Source: Paramacrobiotus metropolitanus
Taxonomy: Eukaryota > Tardigrada > Eutardigrada > Parachela > Macrobiotidae
DNA: 64,000 nucleotides
Direction: 5' to 3'
NCBI RefSeq assembly: GCF_019649055.1
Contig: NW_026570311.1
Span: 186,001-250,000, forward strand
Shown here: piece after piece, positions 10,757 to 32,695 of the stretch
Layout: each line of letters starts with the position of its first letter
How positions within the stretch are numbered: position 1 is the first letter of the stretch
The notes under the pieces: model-generated
Database searches by the model: none
The model's input: the letters and a program-made list of their open reading frames with translations, nothing else
Told to the model about the DNA's origin: nothing
Translations under genes and position numbers: made by a program

Positions 10757-11274
10757 TGACCTTTTGAGTTGAGACAAAGGAAAAGTGACCTTTGATCGAA
10801 TTGAGCTTAAAAGTGACCTTTAACTGGAATTGAGCGGAAAGTGACCTTTTAACAGAAATCGAACTGGAAAGTGACCCTTTGAGTTGAGTTGAGTCGGGAA
10901 GTGACCTTTGAGACCAGAAGTTGACTTTTGACTTTGAAAAGTGACCTTTACCAAAAAGTTGGAATTGATCAAATTGACCTAATTTTAGTGACCTTTATGA
11001 TCTGAAAGTGATCAACAGGTGACCTTTAACGAAGTTGGAATTGAGTTGATTAATAGCACAGCGATATCAGTAGCTGTAGGATTCCATTCGCTAACGTATT
11101 CTGAGCTGTAAAAGCGGTTTCGAAGTTTTGTCCGAAAGTGACCTTTTAGGGCAAATCTCTCGAACTTTTTACCGAAAAAGTGACCTTTACAAAGGACTTA
11201 GTCGAAATTTTTCAGTCGAAAAGTGACCTTTAATAAGGACTTAGAAAAAATTTTCGAGGCACAAAGTGACCTTT
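10757..11274 (+). repeat. Leader cluster of TGACCTTT octamers
   Basis: By hand I count 12 exact TGACCTTT copies (10757, 10786, 10814, 10842, 10902, 10942, 10989, 11020, 11139, 11181, 11224, 11267) plus a TGACCCTTT variant at 10872. Most read AAAGTGACCTTT. All are in the same orientation, spaced about 28-45 bp in the denser part. On the opposite strand each is AAAGGTCA, the NBRE-type monomeric nuclear-receptor site. Confidence 0.9.
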
Positions 11275-11349
11275 AGGACAATCGAATAAACCATACGATA
11301 ACGTTTGTGTGAGAACAATTGGCAGGAGCGTCCAAGTTATCCGATCAAC

Positions 11350-14300
11350 ATGGACAAAGAAGAACCAACATCCACCAGCAGTCAGGGAAGCAGGAGCTCC
11401 CGAGGATCACCAACAGCCCCAGTTGATCCTTATAAGAAGGAATATAAGTCGCTCGCGCGTCCAGTCGGACATGACAGACAGACCCGAGCGGCTGTGACCT
11501 TGCAAGAAAAGACAGCAAAGGCAGTGACAATACATACTCAAGTGGCGGAAACCCGCCTCTTCGACCTGGAGCAGCAACAGGGTGACCTTCAAAGTGCCGC
11601 AGATGGTTGGAAAGTGAAATATGAAAGACAGAAGGAACTGGCCGATGAATATTTGAAAATGGCAGATGACAGAGAAATGGAAGGTCATCTTGCAGTTAGT
11701 GACCTTAATGAGCATGTCAGAAGAATCAGCTGAAAAGTCACGGCACTTAGCCAATTGAAGGATGAATGTGACTCACTGAAACTTAAGGTCACCGAAGCGG
11801 AAGCCAAGCGAGATGAATACGCGGCCAAACTCGTCGACGCTACTCAACGATTGACATACACCAATGAGGTGTTTAAGCTGAGAAACGAATTGAAGTTACG
11901 GGACGAGAACATCGGAACCCTTCAAAAAGAATCACAGGATCATCAGAGGAGAGCCGACGACGCTGTCAAAGTGGCTAAGGACCTGAGGGAGCTTACAGCC
12001 ACTGAAGGCGTGCGGTTGAAGAACGAAATTAAGCAGGTGATGGAAGAGAACAAGTCGTTGAAAGAAGATGTTCAAAAGGTCACCGAAGAGAATACCGAGT
12101 TGAAAAAGACTGCTAAGACAATTGCCGAGCAAGGCCAAAGATGGGAGCACGAAGCAGATCTCCTAGACACAAAGGTCACCGCACTTGAGTTGAAGGACAA
12201 AGAGTGGCAACAAATGGTTCACCAGAAGACACAGGAGATCATCAGACTCAACACGGAGTTGATTGATATGACCCAAACGGCAATGACAAGAGAAGATGAG
12301 GTCAATCAGACAAAAAACCAGCTGAAAGCAGCAGCCGAAGAATACATGACGTTGGAAAGGGATGTGACCCAGTTGGCGGAACACATCAGAAAAGTGGAAA
12401 ATGATACTGAAAAGGTCATTAAAGACAAAACGCTTCAACTGCATCAGCAGATGTTGAAGGTCAACCAAGAGAATCAGAACCTGAAGAATGAGAAAGACCA
12501 ATCCGATTTAAGGATTAAGCGCCTTGAAGATGAGAATAAAGCTCTTCAAATGTCCAACAAACACAAAGATGAACAGCTCCTACAACACGGAGTCAGAACA
12601 GCAACGGTGGAATCGCCCCCGCCCAGTTACAGCAAGGCGCACGAAACGGGCACGGGCAAAAGCTTCCACTTTGATATGCCGCTACGAACCGGTACTGGCA
12701 GAGGAAGTGTCAAAAACGAAAAGGACGGGGAAAAGGTCAAGGATGACAAGGAGCCACCATCGGAAACTTATTCCCATTCGAATCGTGGTGATCCCACCAA
12801 TTTCATCCACATATTGAAACGAAAATCTTCATTGATGAAAGGAAACAGGATAGACCGTCTAGCCGGCAAGAACGCCAAGGAAGTCCCTTACGGAAAAGCG
12901 AAGCGAAATAAGGACGATGACGATAGTGACTCCAGTACGGCAGAAGACAATGATGCGACACAGAGATTAGTGAACACTCCAATCGATGGGGCGCAAGACA
13001 AACTAGTGACCTTTGATGGAAGTCGCGACGCAGTGAATGGCTGGACACAACTGGTTAGAGATACCCAGCGAACGTACCACCTCACCGACGACCAGATATT
13101 AATTGAGATAGCCAGCGCGGTGAAAGGACCAGCGAAAACCTGGTTCGAAGGAGAGAGAGAGATCGCACTCCAGGAGGAAACAGAATATACAATAACGGAA
13201 TGGCTGGCCAAATTCAAAGATGAATATGGAGATCGTGATGAAGAAGTCCTCGGATTACGAGAAGCCATGGCACGAAAATTTGACCTTGGAAAAGAATCGC
13301 TTGATCAATTCTATCAAGCGATTATGAAATACAAGGCGAAGAGGATCATAACTGAAAAGCAGGCAGTCGGTTTCTTGATCGAAGGATGTAGAGTGGACGG
13401 TGACCTTTATAAGGCACTACGCACGCAACAGTGCAGGACCCCAACCGAAATCAAAGATTTCTTCCGTCACTGGTCAGCGGGAGAAGATAAATATAAAGCG
13501 CCTAAAGGTCAACGTAACCAGGAATACGTGACCATCCGCCAAGGTCAAGTCGAAAACGTACCACAACAGAGGATGGTAGCTGCACCAGTCCAGCAGCCGG
13601 TTGAACACCGCAGGGAGGCCCCGGCGCAAGAGGTCACCAAAGAAGTGACCTTCATCGACAGCCAGACGGGACAGCCACTCACGTACGCCATGGTAGCTGC
13701 AATACAGGCGGCGGCTCAAGTGAAACCGATACCTCAGAATGTGGCTCCACCAGCTCCACAGAACGTGGCCCCAATGAACGTTGGAATACCACAACAAGGA
13801 GCGGGGAACGGAAATTTTGGTGGAAATGGATACGGATATGGAAATGCAAACTGGAACGGAGGACAAGGTCAAGGTCAAGGCAACTTCCAGCCAAACAGAG
13901 GAAACCAGAACAAACAGCAAAATCAAGGGTCACGAACCGAATTCAAGTTCCAGATGATCGATGGATGGGTGGCGAACAACGTGCAGATGTGTCAGTACTG
14001 CATGTACGGCAACCACCAGACCCAGGGATGCAAATTCGCTAACACACCACCAGACCAGAACCCGAACCTGTTTGCCTTCAACGAGTGGCAACGACTGCGC
14101 GGGCTCGGTGGTTGGCGCCCAGCGGTCGCAAACGGATATGACCTCATCACCCAATGGTACCAACATAAGGCAAATTTCCAAAACCAACAAGGGAATGGAA
14201 ACGGTAACTATGGAAATGGAAATGGCGGTGGCCAGAACGGTGGCTACGGCCGTGGTGGCTTCGGCCGCGGCGGCTTCAGAGGAAGGAACAGAGGCTATGG

Positions 14301-14490
14301 CCGCGGAAACTTCAGAGGAGGCCAGAACAATGGCGGCGGCCAAGGAAACTACCAGCAGGGTGGTGGCCAATATAATAACGGTGGCGGACAGAATCCTAAC
14401 CCGGCAAATGATATCGGACAACAACAAGGAAATGTGCAGGGCGCGCAACAAGGTGGAGCGCCGGTTCAGGGAAACGGGCAAGATCAGTAG
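11350..14490 (+). CDS. gag: Gag-like protein with one in-frame TGA
   Basis: The ATG at 11350 opens a frame of 1046 residues interrupted once, by TGA at 11731-11733 (codon 128); the coding character continues in the same frame on both sides. Codons about 60-390 form a long heptad-rich coiled coil. A retrotransposon Gag core follows from about codon 552 (VTFDGSRDAVNGW ... KTWFEG ... FLIEGC). A Gln/Gly-rich C-terminus carries a perfect CX2CX4HX4C zinc knuckle starting at C881 and an RGG/RGR-rich tail, both expected to bind RNA. The expected role is capsid assembly and genome packaging. The long N-terminal coiled coil is unusual for Ty3 Gags. Whether the TGA is read through or is a mutation cannot be told from one copy. 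Confidence 0.88.
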
Positions 14491-14568
14491 GCACCGGTGA
14501 GCCTACTGATCGACCCGACCTAAACCACCGGATAAAGGGAAAGGTCACCACTGCAGAATGGTACTGCA
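14491..14568 (+). other. Gag-protease junction
   Basis: After the gag TAG (14488-14490), the same frame has TAA at 14521 and 14533 before the next open frame. A hairpin CACTGCAG/CTGCAGTG with a 7-nt loop lies at 14549-14571, and an AAAGGTCA at 14540. Expression of the next ORF must involve reinitiation, recoding past several stops, or a separate transcript. Confidence 0.5.
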
Positions 14569-16584
14569 GTGAATGTGACCACTGCAACGGCTATATGGAT
14601 GCCGTCAGCGAAAAAGCAAAGTGGACCGGCTATATGGATGCCGCAACCACAAGAAACGGCTAGATGGATGCCGCCACAGCAAAGAGATACGGCTATATGG
14701 ATGCCGTCATCACAAAAAGGAAATGGAACGGTTATAGGGATACCGTCACAAAGTGAAAGGTCACCGCAGAATGGTACTGCGAGTGGAAATTGTCGTGACG
14801 GTAGCGCGACACTGCAAAAAGTGCAGCAAAACGAAAGGTCACCGTACTGCAGCGAAGAAGTGCTGGCGCAACGACGCGCACAACGAAACGCAAAGATTAA
14901 ACAGGCGCTGCTGAATCAGAAGAAACCGCAGAACGTTACTGCGCAAGAGGAAAACGAACAACACGAGAAATTCCGGAAATATTTGGCGGAAAATGAGAAC
15001 GAGGAGCGGAATATCGCTATCACCAGTAAAGACGAAAGGTCACCTTCTGTTGGAAAAGTCCAAGTGAAAGGTCAAGGAGCAAGTGCGAACGCTAAAAGCC
15101 ACGGCGACAGCGTCGTGTTGAAAGGTCAAGAAACAGACTTGACACTGCGAACAGCGCAGAAAAAGAATAGCGAACAGGCACAACCGGACTCTGCTGACTC
15201 ACTTGTGGATGCAATAACGTTGCAACGGAAGGAAATATGGCGAAAAGTGGCCTACCGACCCAATGGGAACCACGGGATGTGGACACCCGTGACACCAAAA
15301 GCGAAACGAAAAGGGGGAATGTCGCAAGAAGATTACTGGGACATGCAACAGTTGCGAACGCAATGTGAAAGAAATCGATTAGAGGAGTTAGTTACCGGGA
15401 AACTAACGCAAAGGTCACTGAAACCTGCCCCAGTGTTCAACGCAACTGACTATAAGAACGCACAAGCTGACCTCAATAACCCGCGAAATGCCCCACCAGA
15501 AGGGAAACCGTTGAACTATGGTGAAAAAGTTCCCATACAAAAGTCGTCAAACGGCGGATTTGTCATAAAGCGTAACGAAAGGTCACAGGACTTAGCGCAA
15601 AATGAACAGAAAGGATGGTCAAAAGAAATGCCACAAACGCGACAGAGTAGTGCAGTTGAAAGGTCACGGGACTTATCGGAGGCGCTGAAAAAGGATGCCA
15701 ATGACAAGTCACCAGCCCGAACAGACGGAATGTCTTCACAAATTGATCAGACGAAAACGAACAATGAAGTCTCCGCGAAGGTGATCGAATGGATGACCGA
15801 AAAAGGATATGACATGGTTACATATGAAAGGTCACCAGATGAGATGAAAGATAGCGAAGAAGACGAATTGAAGCGAGCTGACCAAATAACAAGCGAAGTC
15901 ATTCAGAAGCTGAGAGTTAAGCGAAATGAAAACTGTAAAGAGGAATTGATCCATCAGACGATAAATGAAGTGACTAAAGGTCACATGGATGGCACAAAAG
16001 CAAATGAGCAAGTGCAGAAGGTGGAAAAGGTCACCGGTGATAAAATGGCTACAGAGAAGCGAACAGATAAAGAAAAGCCGCGAAAATATTACGATGTTTG
16101 GACTAACGTTCCACACAGGATTGATAAGTTGAGCGAGATACTGAAAGGTCATAGCACTCCAGCAAAAGGACAAGTGCTTCCCGATATGGATCCAGGACCA
16201 GTATCGCTCATTCCTGTGAAATGTAAGATTCATACACTGAAGATTCAAAACGGAAAATTGCCTAAGAGAATTGAAGCATACACACATGAAGTGAAAGTGG
16301 GAGACATAAAGGTCAACGCAATGTTGGACACCGGCGCTGAGACGTCGCTGATCAGCAAACCGTTTTGCGAGAAGAATGGACTTCATATGCTCCCATTGCC
16401 ACCAGATAGATTGGTGAAGATTAACGGAATTAGCGGAACGTCAGGATTCCTGGTGACGCACTACTGTGTAGCACCAGTGACCTTAAGGAAGAAGACAAGC
16501 GAACATTCATTTTACGTCCGACCGAAGTGTGACGACGTACAAGTGTTATTGGATTTGACTTCTTGGAAAAGAAATTCGTATTAA
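14569..16584 (+). CDS. Protease ORF with long repetitive N-terminus
   Basis: 671-codon open frame in the same frame as gag but separated by stops. It begins without an ATG; the first in-frame ATG is within the WMP repeats at about 14599. Roughly residues 1-560 are hydrophilic, low complexity and rich in K, E, Q and ERS/KGQ/KVT tripeptides encoded by the AAAGGTCA octamer. A retropepsin-like aspartic protease domain follows, with the catalytic MLDTGAETSLIS motif (D587). The expected conserved end of the protease fold falls exactly where the frame breaks into the next ORF (16563-16584), so protease and RT are probably one polyprotein joined by a -1 shift, or a single base has been lost here. Confidence 0.85.
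   Translation: MNVTTATAIWMPSAKKQSGPAIWMPQPQETARWMPPQQRDTAIWMPSSQKGNGTVIGIPSQSERSPQNGTASGNCRDGSATLQKVQQNERSPYCSEEVLAQRRAQRNAKIKQALLNQKKPQNVTAQEENEQHEKFRKYLAENENEERNIAITSKDERSPSVGKVQVKGQGASANAKSHGDSVVLKGQETDLTLRTAQKKNSEQAQPDSADSLVDAITLQRKEIWRKVAYRPNGNHGMWTPVTPKAKRKGGMSQEDYWDMQQLRTQCERNRLEELVTGKLTQRSLKPAPVFNATDYKNAQADLNNPRNAPPEGKPLNYGEKVPIQKSSNGGFVIKRNERSQDLAQNEQKGWSKEMPQTRQSSAVERSRDLSEALKKDANDKSPARTDGMSSQIDQTKTNNEVSAKVIEWMTEKGYDMVTYERSPDEMKDSEEDELKRADQITSEVIQKLRVKRNENCKEELIHQTINEVTKGHMDGTKANEQVQKVEKVTGDKMATEKRTDKEKPRKYYDVWTNVPHRIDKLSEILKGHSTPAKGQVLPDMDPGPVSLIPVKCKIHTLKIQNGKLPKRIEAYTHEVKVGDIKVNAMLDTGAETSLISKPFCEKNGLHMLPLPPDRLVKINGISGTSGFLVTHYCVAPVTLRKKTSEHSFYVRPKCDDVQVLLDLTSWKRNSY
14587..14748 (+). 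repeat. Five-copy CGGC-TATATGGAT-GCCG hairpin array
   Basis: Five copies of a 17-nt hairpin, near 14589, 14630, 14657, 14692 and 14731, stand at 27-41 bp spacing. Four have CGGC/GCCG stems. The fifth has CGGT/ACCG, a paired change that keeps the stem. The peptide reads AIWMP, AIWMP, ARWMP, AIWMP, VIGIP. Confidence 0.75.
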
Positions 16585-19500
16585 TGGACAATGAAGGTGA
16601 AGAAGAAAAGGAAGATGACCCGAAACCAGTTGCCAAAGTACAAGTCGGAAAGGTCACCGAACTTGCAAAACAGGAAAAGGCTCAAACTGTTAATAAAGCG
16701 CTAATCCCAGTACCAGAGGCACCGGGAAACGAAAAGGAAAAGATGACGCGAAAAGAATTGTCACCATTTGAGCAGTTGCAAGTAATCCAGCAGGAGATCG
16801 AAAAGACATTAAATCGGACTTTGCTGACACAGAAGGGAAGAGAAAAGGTCATCCCAGTACCAGAGGCACCGGGAATGACAAAAGTGCAGCAGGAAGAAAT
16901 TATCCCAGTACCAGAGGCACTGGAAACGAAAAAAGAAAATGGAAATGTCGAAAAAGTTATCCCAGTACCAGAGGCACTGGGAAAGGAAGACAAAAGGTCA
17001 CCAGCAACTGAGAACTTGGAACGAGAGCGTAATTCGAACCTTTTCGAACCACGATCTGCTATCCAAAATGAAAGGCTACCAGATGAAGCCAAAGAGGAAG
17101 TAACAGAACGTGATTCTCAAAAGGAACCCTTTTTCGAACCACGACCTGCTACCGAAAGGTCACCAACACTTGAAGAGATAATTGCCACACAGAAAGGAGC
17201 GGCAGTTGCAGCGAAACAATCGCTTGTGCCAGACATGGAGTGGGCAAAGTCTATCCCAGTACCAGAGGCACTGGAAATAAAGACGGCTAAAGTGGGGAAG
17301 GATAAAAAGAGTGAAAGGTTACGAGTTTTGAAACGAATAGCTGAAGAGGAACAGATGTTTACAAGCGAAATCCGCGACAAGGCACTTGAACAATTGAAAG
17401 GTCACCAAACAGAAAAAGAACCAGAGGTCATTGAAATATCCTCTGAGGATAAAAGCGTGACTCCAATCGAATGTGAGGAAGATACCACAGCACAGGAACA
17501 AGTCAAAACTGAAGCGAGTCAGAGGACATTAACTCCAGAAGAACGAGCCGGGAGTTGTCACCACGGTTACTTTGAGGATCCGTGCAGAGTGCAACCACAA
17601 TGGGAATGCGCGGAGTGTTGTGTAAATGCCTCTCAAGATGACCCTTCAGAATGGCCAAGATGTAATGCCGCATTAGCAGACCTTAAAGGTCATGCCCAAA
17701 AGAAAGCGAAAAGCATCATGCGGACAAACGAAATGTGGAAACCACACATCGAACGGTATCATTGGAATAGATATCGAACGTGGTTGTCATGTGTAGAAAG
17801 TTTTATAATTGGAAGAGGCAGATGGCTAAACCATTGGCTGCAACGTGTCGAGAAAGGAATCCAAGATCCTCTCGATCCGGTAGCAACAGAAAGGAGATTT
17901 GAACGAGAGATAGAAGAAATGACCGAGGAAGGAGAAATGTGGGAAGAAGCGAGAGTTGACCTTTTTTGGGACTTCCGTGTGAACCACATGTATAAAGGTG
18001 AAGGGAGAACGATCATCTTCCCGGCAGGACTTGGTACACCTGTCTACGAATCACTGGAAGTGTACTACAACGCGCTAAAAGAGGGAAACGAAAAAGCATT
18101 CGAGAAATACTGGGATAAATTTGAAAGAGAAATTCCCACATTTGATGTCAAAGACATGAGAGAATTACAAGTAACCCGGAGAAGAAGATTACCGGGATTA
18201 ATGCAAAAGAAAAAGGTGACCTTTGCACCAGATCCAGATGGAGTGGATTACCCAGAACGAGGTGGTGATACATGGTGCATGTATGAAACGATTCCGAATG
18301 ATGAATGGGTCACCGAAGAACTGATGGCAAATTGCATCTTCGTTGGTCCTAAACGACCTAAAGGTTACGAAACAATTCAACGGGATGAAGCCAATAAAGG
18401 GACTGTCAAAGAAGCAGAGAAAGAGGAACCAGTTCAAGAGATAGCCGAAGGACAATCGAATGAAACGGAAGAAAGTTCAAAGTCGGCTTTCGACATTGCA
18501 CAGATGTTAACGGACAGGGGCGAAATGTGGAAGAAGTTTAAAGAAGAAGTTGAACGAATATCCAATGAACAGCAAAACCCAGTAACTGAGGCAAAAAACG
18601 GGGAAAGGTCACTCGATAACGGTGAGGAATGTCCGCCGGTCGAGTTGACCGAAAAGCCATTAACGAGCCGCGAAGAAATAAATGAACTGGAAAAGTCAAA
18701 ATCGGACGAAGAAAGGTCAAACTCCGACCAATCAGAAAGGTCACCAACGAGAATTCGGGTAGCAAGGAGTCACCCGAGAGTAGCCGCACGAAACGGGCGA
18801 AAGGCAAAAGAAGGGGACAAACCCCTGCTCAAAAATTCGAAAGCGAAAAAACTTAGCGATTCGCAAGAAAACGAAAGTGACCTTTCATCAGAAGATGAAG
18901 GAGTTGATGAGCGCCCACTTGAAAAGATTGACAAAGGTCAAGCTACCGCACAAGAATATGAGAGCAGTAACTCCGACTCCGAGTGGACGAGTTCAAGCGA
19001 TAACTCAACAACTTCGGAAGATTCAGGTGTAAGTGACCTTTCGGAGCAAGAGGATTTAATGGACTTGGATGAAGATGACGAAGTAGATGAGGAAAAAGAA
19101 AAGGATATTAAAGTCAGAAGATTGAAAGTGGAAAAAGCTAGAATGTCGAAGGACGTGATCAAAGTTTACAGCGATCAGCGAATCAAATTGAAACCGTCAA
19201 ACTGCACACGTGTAAAGGTCAAGATGGGAAAATATGCACCGGCTCAAAACAAGTTGATGTTTACACCAGTCCCACAAGTGGAAACTGAAGTGCAACCGTT
19301 GGCAGGAGTGACGGACCATAGAGGAAAATATTTCGAAATTGTCATTGCAAATCATAGCAGCAAATACCGAGTCGTGAAGAAAAATCAGCTTCTCGGATAC
19401 GTTGAACCGTACGAACATATGGAAAACGTAAAGGTCAATGCTGGGACAGTAAAGAACGTACTCGAAGACCCTGAGGTGGATGAGACAACGAAAGCTGAAC

Positions 19501-21173: not shown

Positions 21174-23487
21174 AGGTCACCGGACTGGAAGCGGAATTTG
21201 AAGTTCCCAATGGAAAGGTCATCGGACTTAATGAAGCGACCGAGAATAGAGATGACCTTTGGGAAACGGATAAAGTGACACAAGCACTGAACGAATGCCC
21301 GATCAAGCTGTTGAGATTCCCAAAACAGATGAAAAAGAGATATAAGCCATTACCGCGATGCAAGGTCATCAAGGATTGGAACGAACTGAGTACGGCGACA
21401 GTCCGTATCGTCAACTTACAAGGTGATGAGGAAGAAGAAGATGACTCAAACTTGCAGTTGCGAAACAAACAGCTGAAAGATCCTCATCTGGCGATGATAA
21501 TAGACGAGCTGGAACATCTACCAGACGCCGAAACGAGATCCAAATTTGAAGTGCATTACCAGTTGTGGAACGGCATACTGTACCGAGTAAAGGATAAAAA
21601 TGGGAGACTTGAAAGGTCATATGTGGTACCGTTGTCAATGCGAAGAGCGATAATCCACGCATTGCACGACGAGAAAGCAGCAGGCCATTTGGGATTTGAA
21701 AAGACTCTGTCAGCAATAAGATTGCGCTACTATTGGGACAGAATGAGCACTGACGTGAAGAATTACATACTCGCCTGTCAAGGATGCCAGTTCCGTAAAA
21801 CACCGAGGAAATGTCCACCTGGAAAACTGCAAGAGATTAAAGTGGGACATCCGTTCTTCCGAGTGTACGCTGATCTGAAAGGACCGTTGTTACCGACGAA
21901 GAAACGTGGATACAAGTACATAGCGGTATTCATCGACCAAACTGACGAAATATGTGATTGCGGTACCAATGAAAACGGCAACGGCCAAAGAATTCGCTAA
22001 AGTGTTCGTGAAGCACGTAATATTGGTACACGGAGCACCGCACATCCTGCATACGGATCGCGGACGACACTTTACAGCTGAAGTATTGGCAAAGGTCACC
22101 AATGTGTTTAAGATTAAGCACACATTTGGAACCGCATATCACCCAGAAGGTCAAGGCCAAGTTGAAAGGCAGATGCAGACAATTGCGGATGGCTTGGCAC
22201 AATACCTGGAAGCGGGAAATGAAAGAAAATTTAACAAGTACCTCCCATATGTTATTTCGGCGATGAACAGGGTCGTACACGCCACAACCGGATATTCAGC
22301 ATACTATATGCTACACGGCAGAGAAATGACAATGCCGGAAGATGTGGTTACAAAAACGAATATACCCGATGATTATGGGACTCCAGACGAATGGGTGGAG
22401 ACCATGAAGAAGAACTTGACCTTTGCAGAAGAAGTGGCACGGTGTAATATTAAAGACGCTTATGAGAAGAATGCGGAGATTTACAACAAGAAGAAGTCTG
22501 AGCCGAACTTCAAAGTGGGAGACTTCGTATTGATACGGCTACCAAAGGATACGAAACAAGGAAAGAAAGAAAACCAATCGGACTTTAAATCGAAGTACGA
22601 TAAAGTTTGGAAGATTCTCAGTTTCCCGCGACCAAATGAAGCCGAGGTCATTGAACAGAACCCGAAGAAAGAAGCAGACCTAAAAGTAGTTTCCATTGAT
22701 CGCTTGAAACCATGGCATCCGCCATTACCCGACGAGAAAAATTCGCAACGAACGATGAACGAAAAGGAACGAAAGAAGCTGAGCATGCTTCGAAAAATGG
22801 TACCAATCAATTTTTCGAACCACCTCTGCTACCTGAAATGGAGAATGTTAGTGGAAAAGAAGACGAACCAGAGCGGAGTCCGAAAAATGACTCAGTCACG
22901 CAACAGAAGCCATTTTTCGAACCACCTCTGCTACATGAAGTTAATGAAGAGACCAAAAGTCACCAAGACGGACAGAATCCAAATAAGAAGAGAGGAAGAA
23001 AAAGGAAAGAAGATAAGGACTTCGAAACCGCAGTCACAATTAAGTTGAACGCGGAGGCTGGTAATTTGGCAGAAAGGTCACTGGAAAAAGATACCGAAAC
23101 TAGCACCAAAGTACCAGAGCGTTCCTCCAAAAGGACTTGCAACAATCCTTTTTCGAACTACACACTGCTACCGCAGATAAAGATGACCTTTTGAAACAGC
23201 GAACGGACGCTGAGATATCAGAGCGTGACCCAAATTTTTTCGAACCACGCACTGCTACAGGCAACGAGAATGACCTCATAGAAAAGCGGAAAGAGGAAAT
23301 AGAGGCGGTCAAATCAAAAGCTGAACAATTGGGCCGCGATATAGCGAAAGCGATTAACGAGCGGAAGGTTAAACAGAAGAAGAAGAAACCAACTCCTACG
23401 GACTTATTGACCCAGAAAGGCGAACCTGAGGACGCAGCCGAGAAAGAACTCCTTGATCGGATAACTAAAGGACGAGAGAACAAATAA
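21152..23487 (+). CDS. Integrase region, frame-broken
   Basis: The first open frame, 21152-22000, carries the H2C2 zinc-binding domain (HDEKAAGHLGF ... CQGCQF) and the first catalytic Asp (YADLKGP, near 21869). A one-base frame break at about 21936-21945 moves the reading into 21954-about 22730, with HTDRG (second Asp) and GQGQVERQ (Glu), spaced D-35-E. An SH3-like C-terminal region (FKVGDFVLIRLP) follows. The tail from about 22730 continues in two more frames (to about 23150 and then to 23487), with four FFE(P/L) repeats. No chromodomain is seen. All catalytic residues are present, but the breaks make this copy unlikely to give active integrase. Confidence 0.88.
22811..23258 (+). repeat. TTTTTCGAACCAC...CTGCTAC repeats resembling tRNA-iMet 3' end
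   Basis: Copies lie at 22811-22833, 22913-22934, 23149-23172 and 23236-23258, with two more at 17041-17063 and 17130-17152. The best two contain TCGAACCACCTCTGCTAC, which matches the T-arm/acceptor 3' end of animal initiator tRNA-Met apart from two single-base gaps. They encode FFEP(P/R) motifs. The CTCTGCTACC part is complementary to the element's PBS at 9863. Confidence 0.7.
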
Positions 23488-23614: not shown

Positions 23615-25879
23615 ATGGAAAGATTGGAACGGCAAAACTCGGATAATTCAGACTCGGAGAGTATTGGAAACCCACTAAAAGCATCAACACCTATAAGAAT
23701 GGAAGGTGAATATGGCTATGACACTTCATATGGTGAAGGATCGACGTCATCAGCGGGAACGGCCCAGAATGAACCCGGAACAGTTCAAGGAGGCTACTAC
23801 GGCAATCCAGGGTATTATGTGTATCACGATCCAGGACAGCAGACGAGCTACCAGGATACGGTTAACTGGGTGCACCACGGCTCACCTGCCGGAACCCAGT
23901 ATTCGGGACAAGCAACGGTCGCCGCCCCCTATCAACCGTATCCAGGATCATATACTCCACCGATGGGACCGCCACAAGCGATGATGGGACCGGCCAGAAT
24001 GTTGATGCCGCCACCGCAACAGACCACACCGAGTCGACTTATGGGACATGGTGGATTCAGCGGAACTCCACCGCGATCACAAAGGTCATCTCCGATACTA
24101 CCGCCTTTTCCGGAGACCGGAGGCTTGGCACTATCGGACATAGGAGCGCCTCGTATGAGGACACCGCAGCAACTGGGTGTGCAGCGTCTACACCGCAATT
24201 CGCCAAACAGAGGAAATAGGCGACCGAGAGGAATTCTACCGTCACTGGGGCCTAACTTGGACGAGACTGGACCAGACGGATTACGGCTTACGCCCCCAGG
24301 TGAACCGTCGATACATGCATACGCACCGAAGCTTCCTTTGGATCTGAGAGAGGACGATGCACGCTTAAATATCATTCCGGATAAGAACGACGAACTGACA
24401 GAAAAGGATTTAGAAGCTATCCGGGAATTAAACCGAAAATGCCGTGAACTTTACCGAGTTCATATGCGAGTTGAAGATGAACACGCATGGTATGGAAAGC
24501 TGATTAGCCTGGAAGCTGTCATCAAACCATGTCATATCGCGCTGAAGGAAAAGACGAAACTGATCGAAAAAGAGCGCAGGGAATACGCGATAAAAGTTGC
24601 ATCGATGTGGCAATACCATCCGTCGCTAAACGGTAGACCATGGCCTTCTACTATCGAAAAGATTCTTAGGTACCTTAAAGTGTTCCCGGAAGCGAGACAG
24701 ATGCCGACTACCAGCGCCGAGGGACCATCTAAATCCATGGTTGAAAAAGACGCCCCAGTCGACGAAATGACAGACGAGGACCTTTTGGCAACAAAGAGAA
24801 AGATAGAAGCTGAATTAACTGAACGAGCAGAAAGGTCACGGGCCAGCTGGGTTGCAGGATCAGGACGTGGACGCACTAGTTCGGTCACAGAACCATCCAG
24901 TGGCACCACGAAGAGTGGAAAAAGAGTGAGATCACCGACGACAAGTCCAAAAGAAACTGATAAGAAAGGGCAGCGAACAAAGAAGCCCACAGAAAGCAAA
25001 GCAACACCAGCTGAGCCGGTAAAGCCACAGGCCCCGATTCCAGTGGGTAGAAAGAGTGTACCACCCACGCTGAAAGGAACGGAAGGTCAGATTCGATTCC
25101 CGAAGTGTAGAAGTTTCACGGCCAAGTACACTGGGGAAGATCATAGAGAACGAAAGGTCACTGCACGAATAGTCGATAAGAAAACGAACAAAGAGATTGA
25201 CTCGTATAATCCCCTCGCGGATAGGTCAGTCAAGGATGCCACTGGAAAAGAGTCAAAAACGATAGTCAATGACGCGCTACAGTTTATTCCCCCAGAAGAA
25301 CGTCATAACCCAAGAGTTATCGTTCAGATGATGAAGCACGTGGTATCTAAAGTCGCAACCGAAGAGGATGCATGGATCCGTATCAAAGTGGGCACAGATG
25401 ATGACCACTTGGCATATACATATACAACGGATGGCAAACTGCTGATCAAAGAGAGAACTCGCTCAAAACCGACGGCGGATCCAGACCCGAAGAAACGATC
25501 GTCAGACGATTATGAGTCGGTCCTGAGATATACAGATGCGACAAGCAGAAAGGTCACCCTCAGACTTTTCGGTGGTAATGGAGAAGCTGTGGAAACCATA
25601 ACTGCAGTGATAGTCGATCCAATAACAGGAGACCCGGTTCCATATGCCCCATGGGATTTGTCAGAAGAGAGCGCCCGAAATGCGAATCAGGCAGCCATCG
25701 AGCAGTTATGGGATCTGATACCCGAAAGTGACCGGACAGATGCCGTGGTCCAAGCGAGTACACTGATCAGCATGATGCGGCATCGAGCGGAAATCGATGG
25801 AGCACATTTCCGACTCACAAGACGAATGGAAGACGGATCGTACAAAACGGTATTTTACGATGCTATTTTACGATGCTAA
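23615..25879 (+). CDS. Accessory ORF 4, unknown function, duplicated domain
   Basis: 754 codons from the ATG at 23615. Residues 1-250 are Pro/Gly/Tyr-rich and disordered. About 250-360 is a helical, charged block, followed by a basic Ser/Thr/Pro linker. The C-terminal third holds two copies of one domain of about 110 residues: copy 1 runs from FTAKYTGE through ARIVDKKTNKEI and PPEERHNPRVIVQMMKH, and copy 2 from VLRYTDATSRKVT through AVIVDPITGDPV and IPESDRTDAVVQASTLISMMRH. I recognise no known family. The frame ends just after a tandem 13-bp duplication of TATTTTACGATGC (about 25851-25876), which shifts the frame; without it the reading would go on only to a TGA near 25917. Confidence 0.8.
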   Translation: MERLERQNSDNSDSESIGNPLKASTPIRMEGEYGYDTSYGEGSTSSAGTAQNEPGTVQGGYYGNPGYYVYHDPGQQTSYQDTVNWVHHGSPAGTQYSGQATVAAPYQPYPGSYTPPMGPPQAMMGPARMLMPPPQQTTPSRLMGHGGFSGTPPRSQRSSPILPPFPETGGLALSDIGAPRMRTPQQLGVQRLHRNSPNRGNRRPRGILPSLGPNLDETGPDGLRLTPPGEPSIHAYAPKLPLDLREDDARLNIIPDKNDELTEKDLEAIRELNRKCRELYRVHMRVEDEHAWYGKLISLEAVIKPCHIALKEKTKLIEKERREYAIKVASMWQYHPSLNGRPWPSTIEKILRYLKVFPEARQMPTTSAEGPSKSMVEKDAPVDEMTDEDLLATKRKIEAELTERAERSRASWVAGSGRGRTSSVTEPSSGTTKSGKRVRSPTTSPKETDKKGQRTKKPTESKATPAEPVKPQAPIPVGRKSVPPTLKGTEGQIRFPKCRSFTAKYTGEDHRERKVTARIVDKKTNKEIDSYNPLADRSVKDATGKESKTIVNDALQFIPPEERHNPRVIVQMMKHVVSKVATEEDAWIRIKVGTDDDHLAYTYTTDGKLLIKERTRSKPTADPDPKKRSSDDYESVLRYTDATSRKVTLRLFGGNGEAVETITAVIVDPITGDPVPYAPWDLSEESARNANQAAIEQLWDLIPESDRTDAVVQASTLISMMRHRAEIDGAHFRLTRRMEDGSYKTVFYDAILRC

Positions 25880-26805
25880 ATTCATCCCCGAAGAACCCGG
25901 CGTCGGCAAATCTAACTGAAACCGGAGGGGCAAGACGTTCTCTACAAAGAGTTTAGAGATTGCCCAGGAAGTCATGAGCACCTTCAGTGTGATGAACAAA
26001 CTGTGGCTATTGTAATCCACCTGGTGACGACGAACCAGAGTCGGAAGACGAGGACCCACCTGAGGAAGAAGGCTCAGACGAAGAAACGGCCGACAAGCAT
26101 AAAAAGCCCTTAAAGGTCAAGCCCTCAAAAGTCAAACCGAGAAAAGCGCCCAGATTGGAAGAGGCCATGAACCGCGACAAGGTTAAGAAAGGCGATTTTC
26201 TCAAGAAACGACGGAGGAAGAAGATAAGAAGAAACAACAGGAGGAAGAAGAAAAGAAGAAAAGAGCGGTGATGAAAGCGATAGCACAAGCACCGGAAAGA
26301 AGAAAAAAGATGAACCAGTGTCTCATGATGTCGAGATATTGGACGAGTCAGTTGGCGAAGTTGAAGAAAGGTCATCGACACCTACGAAGTCAAAGAAAGT
26401 CATCTAATCAGCTACATCAAAAGCAAAGGTCACTGAGCCCGAGTCGCCAAAACCCAGAGCAAAGGTCATCGCAGTGGAACAAGCTGTCCCCATTGTAATG
26501 TCCGCATCCACGATAAAAGAGCGTAAGGCCAAACAAGGTCGTGAGCAAGCGAAACGGGAGACGTCGCTTGAATCGGAGGCATCGGAAGCGAGTCTACCGA
26601 GCACTTCGACAGTCAGTGCGAGGTCATATACGGATTCGAAGACAACCCGGTCAAGGACCACAGAACCAAGAAGCCTAGCGGAGGCCTTGGATAAAGGGCA
26701 AAAAGCAAAGAGCGAGCCCGTTAAGACGAAAGGAAAGGTCAAAACAGCCATGAAAGTTGATGCAATGGCAATGATCATTACGCTGAACCAGATGGAGAGA
26801 GTGAA
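25880..26805 (+). pseudogene. Frame-broken coding stretch between accessory ORFs 4 and 5
   Basis: Acidic and then Lys/Arg/Glu-rich coding character runs through this stretch but is scattered over three frames (for example PESEDEDPPEEEGSDEE near 26040, DEPVSHDVEILDE near 26311, STSTVSARSYTDSK near 26600). Four AAAGGTCA copies lie within it. It leads in frame into ORF 5 after about 26760. I read it as the N-terminal part of ORF 5 or a separate protein broken by several indels. Confidence 0.55.
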
Positions 26806-28440
26806 TTGGACTTTACAGAAGATGAGGAATTTGATGATTCGGACGATGACAGTTTGACCACGGTCGATGACATCATCAACGCGTATAATGGAGCTGAGAA
26901 AAATTTCACACGGATAAGAACAGCATCGGTGACATCGAAATTTAAAGCAGGCTTGAAGACATATCTCAAGAAACAGCGTCGTAGCTTTACTAAACAGAAG
27001 TTTGACGTCGTACTGGAATTCGCACGGAACGCAGGAAAACTTATCCAGAAGCACCCGAGTTTCTCGTATGAGGCCAAGTTGTTCAGACCAGCCAGTTCGG
27101 ATAAGGCGCTGACAACTCCGAATGAAGCGGTCCCAATGCGAGTGGAAAGGGCAATCGCGGGAATGACAAGCCCATTAGGATCAACGAGTCACCGGATTAG
27201 CCAATACATCAACGCAGTTTGGAACGACGGAAACGGAATGATAAAGGAGATCGACACGGCAACCGAGCGCGTATTGCCAAAGTTGATTAAACAGAACGTC
27301 CTTGCCACGACAAACGCACATAAGGGACACCCGATCCGATACACGAGAGTTGGTCTAATACCACCGGAAAGACAGATCCACTGTAATATGTCCGACAGTC
27401 AGGATATGGAAAAGGTCACAGTTTCATCGAAGACAAAAGGCCCAATGGACTCGGAATCGGGAAGTGATGACGATACTACAACAACGGCTCCTTCTGGACC
27501 TGCGACAGAAAAAGGCGAACAGCCGAAAGGTCAAGAGACATCTGGAACTACCGCAGAAGATCAACCGAAAGGTCATGAGACTTCAGATAAACGGGAGAAA
27601 GAAAAGGTCATGCTCCCGATGGATAAGGCAGCGGCAGAAGCTGAAGCGGATTCGGCGCGCCAGGTGTTTCACAAATCACTGTTCATACCATTAAAGGACG
27701 TCTTTGAGAAGGAACGATCGAAGTCGGTCGGCGATTTAAAAGGTCAAGAGACTTTGCCACAGGAGGAGAAGAAGACAGCCGAACCAAAATCGGCGGGGTC
27801 ATCATCAGGATCACTGGCAAAGCTGAGGATCGACGAGACAGCGACGGCTGACCCAACGGACTCGACATCCTCCCAGAAAAGTAGCGGTACACCGGCAAAG
27901 GAGGCTACAGATTACATGTTAGGGCCGGCATTGGACGTGAATAATCGTACATGGAACGAAGTCCAGAACGCACTCCAGATTATTCGGGAGAAAGAAATGC
28001 TTGGGACAGACCTGAAAAGACAAGTGGCGATAAATACGAACGGAAGGTCGTCACTTAATATGACTGAACGGGCTCTGAAACGAGCATATAAGGAAGGAAA
28101 GTTGGGATGTAAATACAACAAGGACAACAAAGTCGTCTACTACCTTCCGAAACAGGGCACGGAACGAACGCCCAGACTGAAAATGGAACTGGAGGCCTGG
28201 AAGATAGCCATCACAGATGTGGCTCTGGACGCCATTGGCGGTACCAATGGCGCGTCATGGAATGACCTTTCGAACTTCATGGCCGTCAATTATGAATTGG
28301 GAGAGCTGAATATTGAAAGCGATAAAGAGTGGATTAAGAATGCCGTCGAAGCCTTGATCGTAGATGAAGTGCTTCATGTTAAGCCAGATGGCCGAATCGA
28401 TTTCAAGCCGTATAAACCATCGACGAAAGAATCCGAGTGA
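26806..28440 (+). CDS. Accessory ORF 5, unknown function
   Basis: 544-codon frame; the coding reading probably starts upstream of the first ATG. It has an acidic start (TEDEEFDDSDDDS), a helical block, a disordered middle with KGQ/KGH repeats encoded by AAAGGTCA, and two similar C-terminal modules, each with a Trp-Asn start (TWNEVQNAL ... YKEGKLGCKY..YYLP and SWNDLSNFM ... DEVLHVKPDGRIDF). These look like small winged-helix folds, which would suggest nucleic-acid binding. That is inference from the pattern only. Confidence 0.75.
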   Translation: MDFTEDEEFDDSDDDSLTTVDDIINAYNGAEKNFTRIRTASVTSKFKAGLKTYLKKQRRSFTKQKFDVVLEFARNAGKLIQKHPSFSYEAKLFRPASSDKALTTPNEAVPMRVERAIAGMTSPLGSTSHRISQYINAVWNDGNGMIKEIDTATERVLPKLIKQNVLATTNAHKGHPIRYTRVGLIPPERQIHCNMSDSQDMEKVTVSSKTKGPMDSESGSDDDTTTTAPSGPATEKGEQPKGQETSGTTAEDQPKGHETSDKREKEKVMLPMDKAAAEAEADSARQVFHKSLFIPLKDVFEKERSKSVGDLKGQETLPQEEKKTAEPKSAGSSSGSLAKLRIDETATADPTDSTSSQKSSGTPAKEATDYMLGPALDVNNRTWNEVQNALQIIREKEMLGTDLKRQVAINTNGRSSLNMTERALKRAYKEGKLGCKYNKDNKVVYYLPKQGTERTPRLKMELEAWKIAITDVALDAIGGTNGASWNDLSNFMAVNYELGELNIESDKEWIKNAVEALIVDEVLHVKPDGRIDFKPYKPSTKESE

Positions 28441-28780
28441 ACTAATCGGGTGTAATATGCAGCGAGTAATGAACCCTGCATATTACAGAAAAAGCATAAA
28501 ATAATTTAAAACGAAAGAGAAAAGTGTTACGAAAGGTCAACTGAAAGCAGTACTAGGACTAATAGAAAAGGTCACAGTAGTCAGAGAGTACTGATAACGT
28601 GAGAAAGGTCACCACGTTACAGTGATAGAAAAGGCAGCAGGAGCTAGGAAAGTCTCAGCTCAGTAACGGAATAGGCGTAAAAATGATAGAAAAGCCTTGA
28701 TATGGATAGGAAATGGAAAGGATTAACGTGGAGAAGTTAATATGACGGATTGTTTTATAATTACAGATTGAAGCGGAAAA
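28441..28780 (+). other. Spacer between accessory ORFs 5 and 6
   Basis: 340 bp without a gene. It contains AAAGGTCA at 28532, 28568 and 28604 and a repeated GTAATATGCAG / CTGCATATTAC pair (28450-28490) that can form a hairpin. Confidence 0.5.
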
Positions 28781-31525
28781 ATGGCACAGAAAGGTCAAGC
28801 CACTCCTAAACGTACGGGAACGGCGGCAGACATAGATCAGTTTACGGGCTATAATCCGAAATGTCCGGACTGCTTAAGGAACAACAAAAAGGTTAATAAG
28901 AAATTCCCTTGCTACACCTGTATTCACAAGCTGGAAGACCCACATACCGTCACGCTTGTTGGGATCATGGAAGCCAAACGTGGGAACTTGGACGTTTTTC
29001 GAAATCTCATAAGCGCAAGAAATTACGGCAGCATCCCTGTAGAAGAGCGAATGCTATTCGAGGATCGCTACCGGGAAGCGATCCGGAACAACGAACCTGG
29101 TTGGGATGACACCTTGGAGCCGTTGAAGTGTCCACAGACAGACGCGTATCGGAAGAAATTCGAAGAGGACCAGGAGAAGATGCGAGTTCAGCAAATGGAA
29201 GACGAACTCCGCGCGAAAATTAATGCGGAAAATAAGAGGGCAAGCGAACAGGCCGCACGAGAGGCGTTGCCCAGTACGTCGGGTTTAGCTCCACCCACGG
29301 GCATGGCCAGCCTTAATGAAGACGAAATACAACTCGTACGACAGTCGCTTATCATTCAAATTGAAACGTTAACGAAAGATCCAGCTGCCATGTCAGACGA
29401 GATATTCAAAATGCTGTTGCGGGAGAAGAAACGACTTCAAGATGGGTTCGCGCCGGCACCATACATAAGGAAGGAAGTCGAAAGACGTATGGATGACCTA
29501 CGCAAATCTCGCCGAACCGAAAGCGATGTGCTGCAAGCACTCAGAAGCTTCAAACGGGATGAAGGCTTCATACGGCCACGGTCGCCCCCGCATAGAGAAA
29601 GGTCACGCGGACATTCACGTGAACATGAACGGACTTCTGAAAGACGGAGCGAAAGGTCACGTGAACACTCTCGCGAAAGGACACGTGAGTACCGAACTGA
29701 AAGGTCACGCGAACGTTCTCGCGATCGAGATTACCGCGGCGGACGAGGATGGGTGCGCCATGGAGACGAAGTTACAGAAATGAGTATTCAAAGGAAAATC
29801 GATACGGCAAAGATCTTGGCAGCCACAAGAGGACGTGAAGAGAAACGGCGTGCGGAGACATTCCGTACAGAACCTGAGAAGGAAGGGCATCAGGTGCCGA
29901 TGGGAGTTGCATTCCGGAATCGCAATGTCAGAATGTCAACACCTGAAAGGTCATGGGACAAAAGACGCGAACAAACGCGGAATCGAACACCCGACCGACA
30001 GGATAAAAGATGGCAACAGAGAGCTGCATTTTATGCGACCTTTGACTCGGGCGCAAGCAAAAGGTCATCAAGCACTGAACGGGAAGATTCACCTCCAAAG
30101 TATCAGCGGGTGGAGTCAGTGGTTCACGTAGTGGAACCAATTGTGAGCGTCGTACAAGAAGACGATGCGATGGAAGGGACCAGCTCAGTTGTCGAAACCA
30201 CGTCTCGAGAGAATGTGACTCACCGACGAAATGTGATCCTGGATAGTGACCTTCAACCGGCTTCATCGACGAGTAATGAACCGTCGCAGCCAGCATCAGC
30301 AGACCGACGTGAACCGGAAGGTCAAGGCGAACAGGATAATCGTCGCCAAGGCGATCAGCGATTACACTCCAGATTTAATAACCGACAACCAGAAAGTATT
30401 GACATGGAATACAAGACGACTGATATTGATGAGCAAACGGTCGAAATTTGTCGATACTTTGGACTTGAGCCGGATTCGGTTGAAGCCAATAAAATTGGCA
30501 CAATGCTGCGACAGCTGAGTCAATTCTTACTTGACTCGGGTTACGCGAAAGAAATTAAAGAGGGAGTGGAACAAGGATTTTTTCGCCGGTTATTCATCCA
30601 CCGCGACTCGGTACGGGATTGTTATCTCCCTATCCGACAGAATGGGCTACACAGCTTAGTGGATTTGAACTTATTGGATGTACCATTGGATACAACTGAC
30701 CCAATCGGAATGACACAGTTTTATTATCGCGATTATCCTGAACGACAGGAATATGTGGCTCAGTTTGTTCTACGCTACGTGAATCCGGCTTTCAAGTTGT
30801 TAGCTGCGAGAGCATCGATCGGATTACAGGTGGATCCGAAGGACCATGCCGCAAAAAGGATGGGGCAAAAGGTCTTCGCTGCGAGATTGGCACATTACAA
30901 GACACAGAATCAATTGGTGTCTAATACTATGAAGGACGACATTCCACCGTTCTTCCGGGCTCATGTCGCTAAATTGGGACAACCGTTGGAACACATTAGC
31001 ATAGCCCATAATGCTCGAAAGGCGCTGAAGAAATGTAAGACACGGATGGAAAAGGGCAACTTGACACAGCGCCATGCCTCCCAAGTTGAAGAGAGGATCA
31101 ATAAGATCAAAGATTCTCTAGGAAGTGACTATGTGGAACCGGTAGACGGAGTCGAGACTTACATTAATGACTTCTTGGTGAAGAAAAGTGACCGTCGTCC
31201 GGAACGTGCTCCTAACCAGATGGGACGACGCGGTATACGGAACCAGCAGCTTAGGGAGAATCTCGCTGATGTGCAACGTCGCCTAGCTAACGACCCCGAT
31301 AACCGAAGACTGCGACTAGAAGAAAATGACGCACGCCATCGACTTGAGGCGGTTAAGCGAAGTCGCCAAGGTAAAGGTCGTGGCCAACGAGAAGTCGACC
31401 CGACAAAGGTCATGGAAGTTGACTCGACGGAACCAGTTGACCGAACTTCCGACCGAAACCAACCGGAAAGCGCTAAGAAACGCCCGCCGAGAGATGGCGA
31501 GGGCGATTCAAATGAAATGGAATAG
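28781..31525 (+). CDS. Accessory ORF 6: zinc-ribbon, RS-domain protein
   Basis: 914 codons from the ATG at 28781. Near the N-terminus is a CPDC ... CYTC pair (about residues 27-47) that could bind zinc. Next come a charged helical region to about 260, then an RS-type domain at about 268-320 (RERSRGHSREHERTSERR and onward) in which the ERS units are encoded by GAAAGGTCACG. A disordered middle leads to a folded, mostly helical C-terminal region from about 545 (ICRYFGLEP ... YCLPIR-like ... HISIAHNARKALKKC). I recognise no family. RS domains usually mediate RNA or splicing-factor contacts, so a role in RNA export or splicing control of the long transcript is possible. It has no signal peptide or membrane segment, so it is not an envelope. 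Confidence 0.82.
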   Translation: MAQKGQATPKRTGTAADIDQFTGYNPKCPDCLRNNKKVNKKFPCYTCIHKLEDPHTVTLVGIMEAKRGNLDVFRNLISARNYGSIPVEERMLFEDRYREAIRNNEPGWDDTLEPLKCPQTDAYRKKFEEDQEKMRVQQMEDELRAKINAENKRASEQAAREALPSTSGLAPPTGMASLNEDEIQLVRQSLIIQIETLTKDPAAMSDEIFKMLLREKKRLQDGFAPAPYIRKEVERRMDDLRKSRRTESDVLQALRSFKRDEGFIRPRSPPHRERSRGHSREHERTSERRSERSREHSRERTREYRTERSRERSRDRDYRGGRGWVRHGDEVTEMSIQRKIDTAKILAATRGREEKRRAETFRTEPEKEGHQVPMGVAFRNRNVRMSTPERSWDKRREQTRNRTPDRQDKRWQQRAAFYATFDSGASKRSSSTEREDSPPKYQRVESVVHVVEPIVSVVQEDDAMEGTSSVVETTSRENVTHRRNVILDSDLQPASSTSNEPSQPASADRREPEGQGEQDNRRQGDQRLHSRFNNRQPESIDMEYKTTDIDEQTVEICRYFGLEPDSVEANKIGTMLRQLSQFLLDSGYAKEIKEGVEQGFFRRLFIHRDSVRDCYLPIRQNGLHSLVDLNLLDVPLDTTDPIGMTQFYYRDYPERQEYVAQFVLRYVNPAFKLLAARASIGLQVDPKDHAAKRMGQKVFAARLAHYKTQNQLVSNTMKDDIPPFFRAHVAKLGQPLEHISIAHNARKALKKCKTRMEKGNLTQRHASQVEERINKIKDSLGSDYVEPVDGVETYINDFLVKKSDRRPERAPNQMGRRGIRNQQLRENLADVQRRLANDPDNRRLRLEENDARHRLEAVKRSRQGKGRGQREVDPTKVMEVDSTEPVDRTSDRNQPESAKKRPPRDGEGDSNEME

Positions 31526-31555
31526 TGTTGACCTTTAGGATCACACTATTAAAAG

Positions 31556-32165
31556 GACGTCTACGGCACTTGTCGGTACGTCACAAAGATGAAAATGGTG
31601 TTGTATAAAGGACGTGACACGTGACATGTTAACATAAACTGTATTTGTGTATTTGTTGTTTGCAGCGTTTATAGCACAGAATTGCCTAAAAGAAATCATG
31701 TGGAATATCTATTGGGGTTGAAATTGATTCGGTCTATAAAGCCGGCCCCAAGGGAGCAGTTACGGCAGTTAGCCGGCTCTCCTCTCTAAGCGACTCAGTG
31801 TTATAAATGCACAAGAGAAACAACGGTAATCAAGCCGGATCTCTTGAATACGAAACGGGGCCACAAGCGGCGAAAAAGAGAAAGACAACAGGTGGAACAT
31901 TGATGAGGTTAACTTAATGCGGCAATCAGCCGGCCTCATTAGAGTTGTTACGGTAAACTGTGCCGGCACTCTTTTCAAGCGATTCAGTGTCAAAATTAAA
32001 ACGAGAAAACTACGGTAACCAAGCCGGATTTCTCGTAGTAATGGATGTTAGCCACAAGCGGCGAACAAGAATAAAAGATTTAAGGTGGAAATTTCATGGG
32101 GTAAACTCAATGCGGTAACTAGCCGGCCCCATCAGAGATGCTACGGTAAACTTGCCGGCACTCTG
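31556..32165 (+). other. Array of eight CGGYA...GCCGG hairpins
   Basis: Hairpins are at 31556-31582, 31751-31783, 31812-31846, 31903-31939, 31941-31972, 32001-32036, 32096-32132 and 32133-32165. Each has an outer stem enclosing a loop with (A/G)CGG(T/C)A, then 3-9 nt, then GCCGG (the first is TCGG). Outer stems differ but pair: GACGT/ACGTC, CAAGAGA/TCTCTTG, ATGAGG/CCTCAT, AGAGT/ACTCT, ACGAGAAA/TTTCTCGT, ATGGGG/CCCCAT, CAGAG/CTCTG. CGG and CCG can pair inside. GCCACAAGCGGCGAA occurs between them at about 31860 and 32051. Confidence 0.82.
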
Positions 32166-32281
32166 GCCGCTCGAGGCATACTGAAGTTGGATGTGCGACT
32201 ACAAGGTCAAACTACAAGTTTTACCAGGGAGGCAAGCGAAGAAGTGCTTGAAAGCCGCAGAAAATTGGCTAAGTTCCTCCA

Positions 32282-32695
32282 TGACCTTTAATGGAAGTTT
32301 GACGAAAAGTCGGATGACCTTTGGGATCATCAATTGCCCAACGGAGTCACCGTAATGGAATGAAAAGTCGCATGACCTTTGGGACCATTAACCCAAAACG
32401 AGTCGCACATCTCAACGGATCATCTCACCAAAGGATGACCTTTATTAGGGAGGAAGCGAACTACGCTTGTCTTCATTGACGTCCCTCCATGACCTTTATC
32501 GGATCTCATTCTGAAGTCGTACGAATGATACGCACCATATTCCAAAGATTGAAGCAGTATTCCTAAGTCGTACTTGATACGCACCTGATTCTCAAGCGGA
32601 TTGTGATGAAAAGTCGCACTACGGATGCGCGGACTTGCTCAACAGAGCGGAATGGGCCAAAGTGCGGAAAACGGTGGACAGGACCTGTGACCTTT
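32282..32695 (+). repeat. 3' cluster of TGACCTTT octamers
   Basis: Six exact copies lie at about 32282, 32314, 32373, 32436, 32490 and 32688, with another at 31530, all in the same orientation as the leader cluster. Several are preceded by GAAAAGTCG, giving a loose repeat of 55-65 bp. Confidence 0.88.

Follow-up and report, generated by a model that had tools for sequence, protein, structure and literature searches.

The VANDAL transposons of Arabidopsis, with the anti-silencing action of their VANC proteins, appear to be the closest precedent for the element described here, and one that a preliminary description of this DNA had not named. The density of the VANC21 word, YAGTATTAY, is unique to one VANDAL family, in which it forms arrays of one orientation, the word being sporadic elsewhere, and motif arrays have been gained and lost between copies (PMC5735166, PMC10398659). 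The periodic A/T clusters (PATC) of C. elegans are noncoding and can prevent germline silencing, as tested with transgenes (PMC7725773). Nuclear receptors of the NR4A group bind a monomer site, the NBRE (PMC4777543), and nuclear-receptor sites in retroelements have been reported for repeats such as Alu (PMC3252374, PMC1785376); among the accounts of this kind that were listed, no report of a word that saturates coding DNA was seen. The stretch of DNA analysed here (the window, 64,000 nucleotides) belongs to contig C91 of the 169.8-Mb, 533-contig genome of the tardigrade Paramacrobiotus metropolitanus, and holds an LTR (long terminal repeat) retrotransposon that bears one octamer, AAAGGTCA forward or TGACCTTT reverse, 92 times. 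Its sequence suggests that some protein may recognise the element along most of its length.

Like VANC/VANDAL, the element combines a short word, high density and restriction to one family. As far as the accounts cited above describe them, VANDAL motifs are mainly noncoding, whereas 61 of the 92 octamers here lie inside open reading frames (ORFs); VANDAL motifs spread by tandem repeats, whereas here tandem steps in the leader and in-frame repeats in a relative on contig C1 stand beside a window copy whose body is random in spacing; and VANDAL is a plant transposon with a tested element-encoded binder, whereas the present element is an animal LTR retrotransposon whose binder, from host or element, is putative. 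PATC, in the same accounts, shares the idea of an anti-silencing DNA signal but contains no octamer. The octamer AAAGGTCA is identical to the NBRE as given in PMC4777543, as the preliminary description had stated, although receptor binding in the element is putative. No description of an octamer-saturated retrotransposon was found in the open-licence literature, as judged on titles and the beginnings of abstracts, and the accessible part of a paper on tardigrade LTR elements (PMC11071193) does not mention Paramacrobiotus. The element also calls to mind the Drosophila gypsy retrotransposon, whose leader carries about a dozen sites for the host DNA-binding protein Su(Hw). Those sites are confined to the leader, whereas the octamers here run on into the coding body and as far as the 3' region.

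Between positions 10757 and 32695 we counted 63 copies of AAAGGTCA and 29 of TGACCTTT, and three octamers in the rest of the window (43523 and 46371 forward, 44777 reverse), exactly the figures, with about three outside, that had been obtained earlier by hand. AAAGGTCA is the commonest 8-mer of this interval when the strands are pooled. A second-order Markov model of the element predicts 1.8 octamers against the 92 observed, so that the strong excess reported earlier stands. The density in the element is about 3.9 per kb. Neighbours with a single mismatch are few, with the clearest excess at the first position (8 C, 9 G and 5 T against 0.8-1.8 expected) and at the fourth (7 A against 2.1 expected). 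Of the 92 octamers, 52 forward and 9 reverse ones fall in the eight main ORFs, where 1000 synonymous-codon shuffles gave a mean of 4.4 forward (maximum 12) and 0.30 reverse (maximum 2), 4.7 in all, and 1000 shuffles of codon order gave 0.85 (maximum 5) and 0.10 (maximum 2), so that a codon-preserving shuffle does not reproduce the counts. Chance and codon usage are rejected as causes by the Markov expectation and the two shuffles. Forward copies fall in at least two frames in seven of the eight ORFs and use all three frames overall, with 4, 7 and 2 copies in the three frames of the protease ORF and 3, 5 and 6 in those of the reverse transcriptase (RT) ORF, in agreement with the earlier claim that the motif occurs in every frame, sometimes within one ORF. 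In the body of the window copy the spacing of octamers is random-like (coefficient of variation 0.96 against 0.98 in simulation), their flanks are dissimilar, and a helical phasing value of 0.12 at 10.5 bp looked weak, with no null applied; a spacing rule was sought and none was found there.

Constraint was estimated from an alignment of 30 copies (the window copy and loci L002-L030) over window positions 18360-22200, which include 15 of the 92 sites. An 841-base RT piece had at least 40 matches, 87-100% identical and including the window copy (40 scored of 389 candidates). Diversity at fourfold sites was 0.027 within octamers (14 of 17 sites invariant) and 0.291 outside them (450 sites, 14% invariant), and free synonymous variation at motif positions, which the preliminary description had named as evidence to the contrary, was not seen. 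Twofold third positions gave 0.058 inside and 0.262 outside octamers, first codon positions 0.026 and 0.071, and second positions 0.032 and 0.039. On average, each of the 15 octamers recurs unchanged in 26.1 of the 29 other copies (range 23-28) against 10.4 for local phase-matched octamers, and none of 10000 resamplings of the latter reached 26.1. Across the eight octamer positions third-position diversity was 0.00-0.07 (1-7 positions at each offset), rising outside the octamer to 0.22 and 0.40 at two and three bases before it and to 0.27 two bases after it; the bases directly flanking it gave 0.067, from one third position each, which places the edge to within about two bases. Constraint extends over about 8 bp. 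One locus, L014 (79% identical), has 7 octamers in 3.8 kb against 10 to 16 in the other 29 loci, as expected if copies decay after insertion.

The octamer is also kept in more distant elements. There are 99 octamers in the 23.9 kb of a copy on contig C36, 107 in the 17.1 kb of a copy on C7 and 87 in the 19.8 kb of the C1 relative (C1, 200000-219800); with the window copy this makes 87-107 per element in four elements of one family. The C1 relative, although only 71% identical, shares 23 of 39 aligned sites against 7.2% of control 8-mers, and retention is 63 of 77 sites in the C36 copy (control 27.8%) and 59 of 69 in the C7 copy (control 32.2%). Sites of their own number 15 in C36, 15 in C7 and 13 in C1, and 16 are present in the window copy and absent from C1, gain and loss not being polarised. 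An ungapped one-mismatch octamer faces 15 of the 43 copy-own sites, some of which recur in two or three comparisons, and many copy-only sites lie opposite gaps or poor alignment and hence are not clean gains. The codon shuffles, the fourfold constraint and the sites shared with the 71% relative together support selection on the nucleic acid, beyond the protein, as had been proposed; selection at the protein level alone is rejected by frame independence and synonymous constraint.

The base that follows the octamer adds a further rule. In the window copy this base is C in 52 cases, T in 22, A in 18 and never G (n=92), and the pattern holds in both orientations (forward C 34, T 14, A 15; reverse C 18, T 8, A 3). 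G follows none of 92, 99 and 107 octamers in three copies, 2 of 87 in a relative and 2 of 406 intact octamers in the 30-copy alignment. In ORF frame 1, where the next base starts a codon, G is found in 0 of 20 cases, though 34% of the codons in six ORFs start with G. Genome-wide, AAAGGTCAC occurs at 19,414 places (reversed control 3,461) and AAAGGTCAG at 4,042 (reversed control 2,427). The two orientations share the octamer and its next-base rule and differ in the flanks further out. Since both orientations are in excess and G is nearly excluded after each, recognition of double-stranded DNA is favoured over an RNA code.

The retrotransposon itself is of the Ty3-like LTR type and spans 9509-33307 (23.8 kb); its nature had been recognised correctly, while the LTRs widen the span of 10757-32695 first given to it. 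The parts of the element are as follows.

9509-9860, forward strand: 5' LTR, a direct repeat of 32957-33307; no octamers
10757-11274, reverse strand: leader array of 12 octamers, all TGACCTTT, with 8 of 11 steps of 28-43 nucleotides
11755-14490, forward strand: gag-like ORF with a C-x2-C-x4-H-x4-C knuckle seen by eye and no Pfam match; 7 octamers
14569-16584, forward strand: protease ORF, Asp_protease_2 over its cut-off; 13 octamers in three frames
16563-21173, forward strand: RT and RNase H ORF, with RVT_1, RT_RNaseH and RT_RNaseH_2 over their cut-offs; 18 octamers
21152-23048, forward strand: integrase, Integrase_H2C2 over its cut-off and a partial rve below its cut-off; 6 octamers
23615-25879, forward strand: extra ORF6 (754 amino acids), no Pfam match; 4 octamers
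26806-28440, forward strand: extra ORF7 (544 amino acids), with a weak linker-histone-like stretch at 473-523, below cut-off; 6 octamers
28781-31525, forward strand: extra ORF8 (914 amino acids), with an N-terminal C-x2-C-x11-C-x2-C module; 7 octamers
31529-32695, reverse strand: 3' region with 7 octamers, all TGACCTTT
32957-33307, forward strand: 3' LTR; no octamers

The LTRs of the window copy are identical except for one base in a homopolymer run, and the insertion is therefore probably recent. Octamers are absent from the LTRs, from the first 0.9 kb after the 5' LTR and from the last 0.26 kb before the 3' LTR. The LTRs and the order protease, RT, RNase H and integrase (Pfam, all over their cut-offs except rve, which is below its cut-off and in a broken frame) resemble Ty3/Gypsy elements; the RT database matches listed are polyproteins with RVT_1 and RT_RNaseH domains, and the likeness is one of domains and LTRs. 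Unlike the usual Ty3/Gypsy element, this one is 23.8 kb long and has three extra ORFs with no confident known domain, besides its 92 copies of one octamer. In the window copy the integrase frame is interrupted, giving two overlapping ORFs (21152-22000 and 21954-23048), and an open frame at 11302-11730 upstream of the gag-like ORF is divided from it by a stop. No Pfam match over cut-off was found for ORF6-8, and profile search, used alone, gave no match to an envelope family there. Just 3' of the 5' LTR, TGGTAGCAGAG at 9863-9873 resembles a primer-binding site for initiator methionine tRNA. To the left of the 5' LTR lies a near-perfect palindrome with 33-nucleotide arms and no loop (9207-9272). 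Two further repeats were seen in the coding body: a 51-nucleotide unit with ATCCCAGTACCAGAGGCAC, present five times in the N-terminal part of the RT ORF (16678-17277; peptide I-P-V-P-E-A), and a dispersed repeat of about 30 nucleotides (TTTTTCGAACCAC...CTGCTA) at 17035-17154, 22805-22939 and 23144-23260, in the RT ORF and at the integrase end.

The surest noncoding parts are the leader (12 reverse octamers, none forward) and the 3' region (7 reverse, none forward), and the earlier statement that the motif continues outside coding DNA holds for these two. It is not upheld for the internal spacers: P0134, an annotated protein related to ORF7, matches 25877-26805 in several frames, with matches extending over 25328-26776, and the idea that octamers fill internal noncoding spacers was dropped, the apparent spacer at 25877-26805 being, to judge by these matches, coding in origin.

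Outside the family the octamer is sparse. Two loci of a related family, the P0008 locus (56% identical in its RT part) and one with 70% identity to it, contain no octamer over 7.6 kb, and four P0008-type places on C1 had no close pair within 15 kb among those listed. Thirty other RT loci carry 18 octamers in about 108 kb, 0 to 3 each (a lower bound on such loci: 30 fetched, 150 scored, 1953 candidates), which is still about twice the reversed-control density; compared with about 3.9 per kb in the element, this leaves a genome-wide host code unsupported. Genome-wide there are 42,562 octamers against 15,522 for the reversed octamer, which is an imperfect composition control, and 2732 close same-strand pairs against 52. 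The first 100 pairs listed all lie on C1, and 80 of them fall within 24 kb of six family loci (defined by an ORF8 homologue or a C7-type array). Together these take up no more than 10% of the C1 stretch that holds the pairs; the other 20 pairs are found elsewhere, some of them in other repeats. Apart from the six loci, a local repeat with AAAGGTCATCCACCTTT units (C1:565258-567723) contributes 5 of the listed pairs. A tandem satellite of about 91 bp (C1:2537724-2538368; 8 hits among those listed) has a unit with AAAGGTCAG, the form avoided by the element.

Within the family the extra ORFs are not constant. The C7 copy lacks ORF6-8 and carries instead an irregular array of about 30 AAAGGTCA (L067, 4158-5545) with a short ORF7-like piece inside; this array region (1301 bases) has 17 other matches of at least 1000 bases at 72-100% identity, one on C370 at 100%. 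An octamer-rich copy without ORF6-8, together with its related arrays, suggests that the octamer can be served in trans. In the 71%-identical C1 relative, ORF6 and ORF7 were not detected, and the N-terminal part of ORF8 is present. The 11 database relatives found for ORF8 all come from P. metropolitanus, those that extend to its C4 module conserve it, and no sequence match was found in the PDB.

We propose, at about an even chance, that the octamer is a binding site in double-stranded DNA, AAAGGTCA followed by A, C or T, that keeps the element expressible or unsilenced. The next-base rule, the constraint over about 8 bp, the random spacing in the body and the differing flanks are what a monomeric DNA-binding protein would be expected to leave behind. 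The predicted binder would read AAAGGTCA and then A, C or T as a single unit; about four sites per kb would have accumulated wherever coding constraints permit, in addition to the leader arrays, and the binder would occupy the body of the integrated element. The most likely advantage would be that a multi-gene element of 24 kb stays transcribable or escapes germ-line silencing, as VANDAL does through VANC. The exact match to the NBRE makes a nuclear receptor of the host that binds as a monomer, of the NR4A/ERR/FTZ-F1 kind, the likeliest candidate for the binder, and a protein of the element such as ORF8, with its C4 module, is a possible next candidate. Nuclear receptors may disfavour G after AGGTCA.

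Several observations weigh against this proposal. The octamer is missing from the LTRs, the expected place for a classical enhancer; a host NR4A was not identified, the genome having 63 places that match zf-C4; and the word is seen in this family only, which is easier to reconcile with an element-specific factor than with a host one. The forward excess in the ORFs tracks coding composition, since the synonymous null already leans forward by about 15 to 1, yet all 19 octamers of the noncoding ends are reverse although composition there favours forward by 4.0 and 2.3 to 1, and a strand-blind DNA code does not predict this. As the leader is partly tandem, duplication of a few founders may have produced the reverse-only ends. 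In the C36 and C7 copies the leader array is oriented as in the window copy and has 29-nucleotide tandem steps, and the 3' region of each has one forward AAAGGTCA where the window at 32202 reads CAAGGTCA. Among the close pairs of the C1 relative, 83 of 103 keep a distance divisible by three, a sign of in-frame repeat expansion, and some sites are therefore not independent in origin.

A binder encoded by the element, ORF8 in the first place and ORF7 in the second, might instead bind cDNA or integrated DNA, with a part in compaction, nuclear import or integration rather than in expression. The octamers do sit in the internal region that is carried by both RNA and cDNA, the ORF8 module is conserved in the P. 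metropolitanus relatives that reach it, and the 71% relative keeps ORF8 in part, neither ORF6 nor ORF7 having been detected there. An ORF8 homologue was moreover listed within 20 kb of 15 of 40 family RT places and of none of 35 P0008-type places, although shared descent confounds this co-occurrence, which was scored at 78 of 500 candidate places. We nevertheless consider such a role unlikely: it would make the identity with the NBRE a coincidence, ORF8 has no Pfam or PDB sequence match, the 71% relative yielded no ORF7, and ORF8 is altogether absent from the C7 copy. An RNA-level word, in which UGACCUUU of the leader and 3' region pairs with AAAGGUCA of the body for folding or packaging of the 24-kb RNA, or in which an RNA-binding protein reads the word, is less probable again. 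The split of orientation by region (all 19 octamers of the ends reverse; 52 forward against 9 reverse in the ORFs) would place complementary octamers on one RNA, and the internal region rather than the LTR bears them; the further flanks, however, differ between the orientations, so that complementarity does not extend, pairing does not predict the exclusion of G, and reverse sites number 9 in the ORFs, where 0.3 would be expected.

Of the three proposals of the preliminary description (a receptor sponge, a hormone-responsive platform and an RNA code), we judge the sponge the weakest. An element that titrates a host nuclear receptor and so alters development or the hormone response could draw on the 42,562 octamers of the genome (reversed control 15,522); a benefit common to all copies, however, would give weak selection per copy, yet constraint is strong where tested, and titration needs no sites in coding DNA, which makes this explanation very improbable. 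Neutral spread by a mutational or recombination process, without function, finds some footing in the tandem units of the leader arrays, with 29-nucleotide steps in the C36 and C7 copies, and in the in-frame repeats of the C1 relative. It is hardly to be credited, as synonymous constraint drops within about two bases of the octamer, sites are retained at 71% identity, and the body of the window copy shows random spacing and dissimilar flanks.

Tentatively, we see in the octamer a second, frame-independent DNA address code by which one protein would coat and license the whole element, possibly derived from a hormone-receptor site. If true, an animal transposon would carry along its whole body a cis code for its identity or for anti-silencing. 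If the binder acts in the germ line, the family would be an animal counterpart of the VANC system and, to our knowledge, the first such system to run through coding sequence. It would offer a directly testable approach to three questions: how very long retroelements remain active, what reads the bodies of transposons in tardigrades, and to what extent protein sequence (K-V-T, K-G-H/Q and E-R-S) can be bent by selection for the sake of a DNA word.

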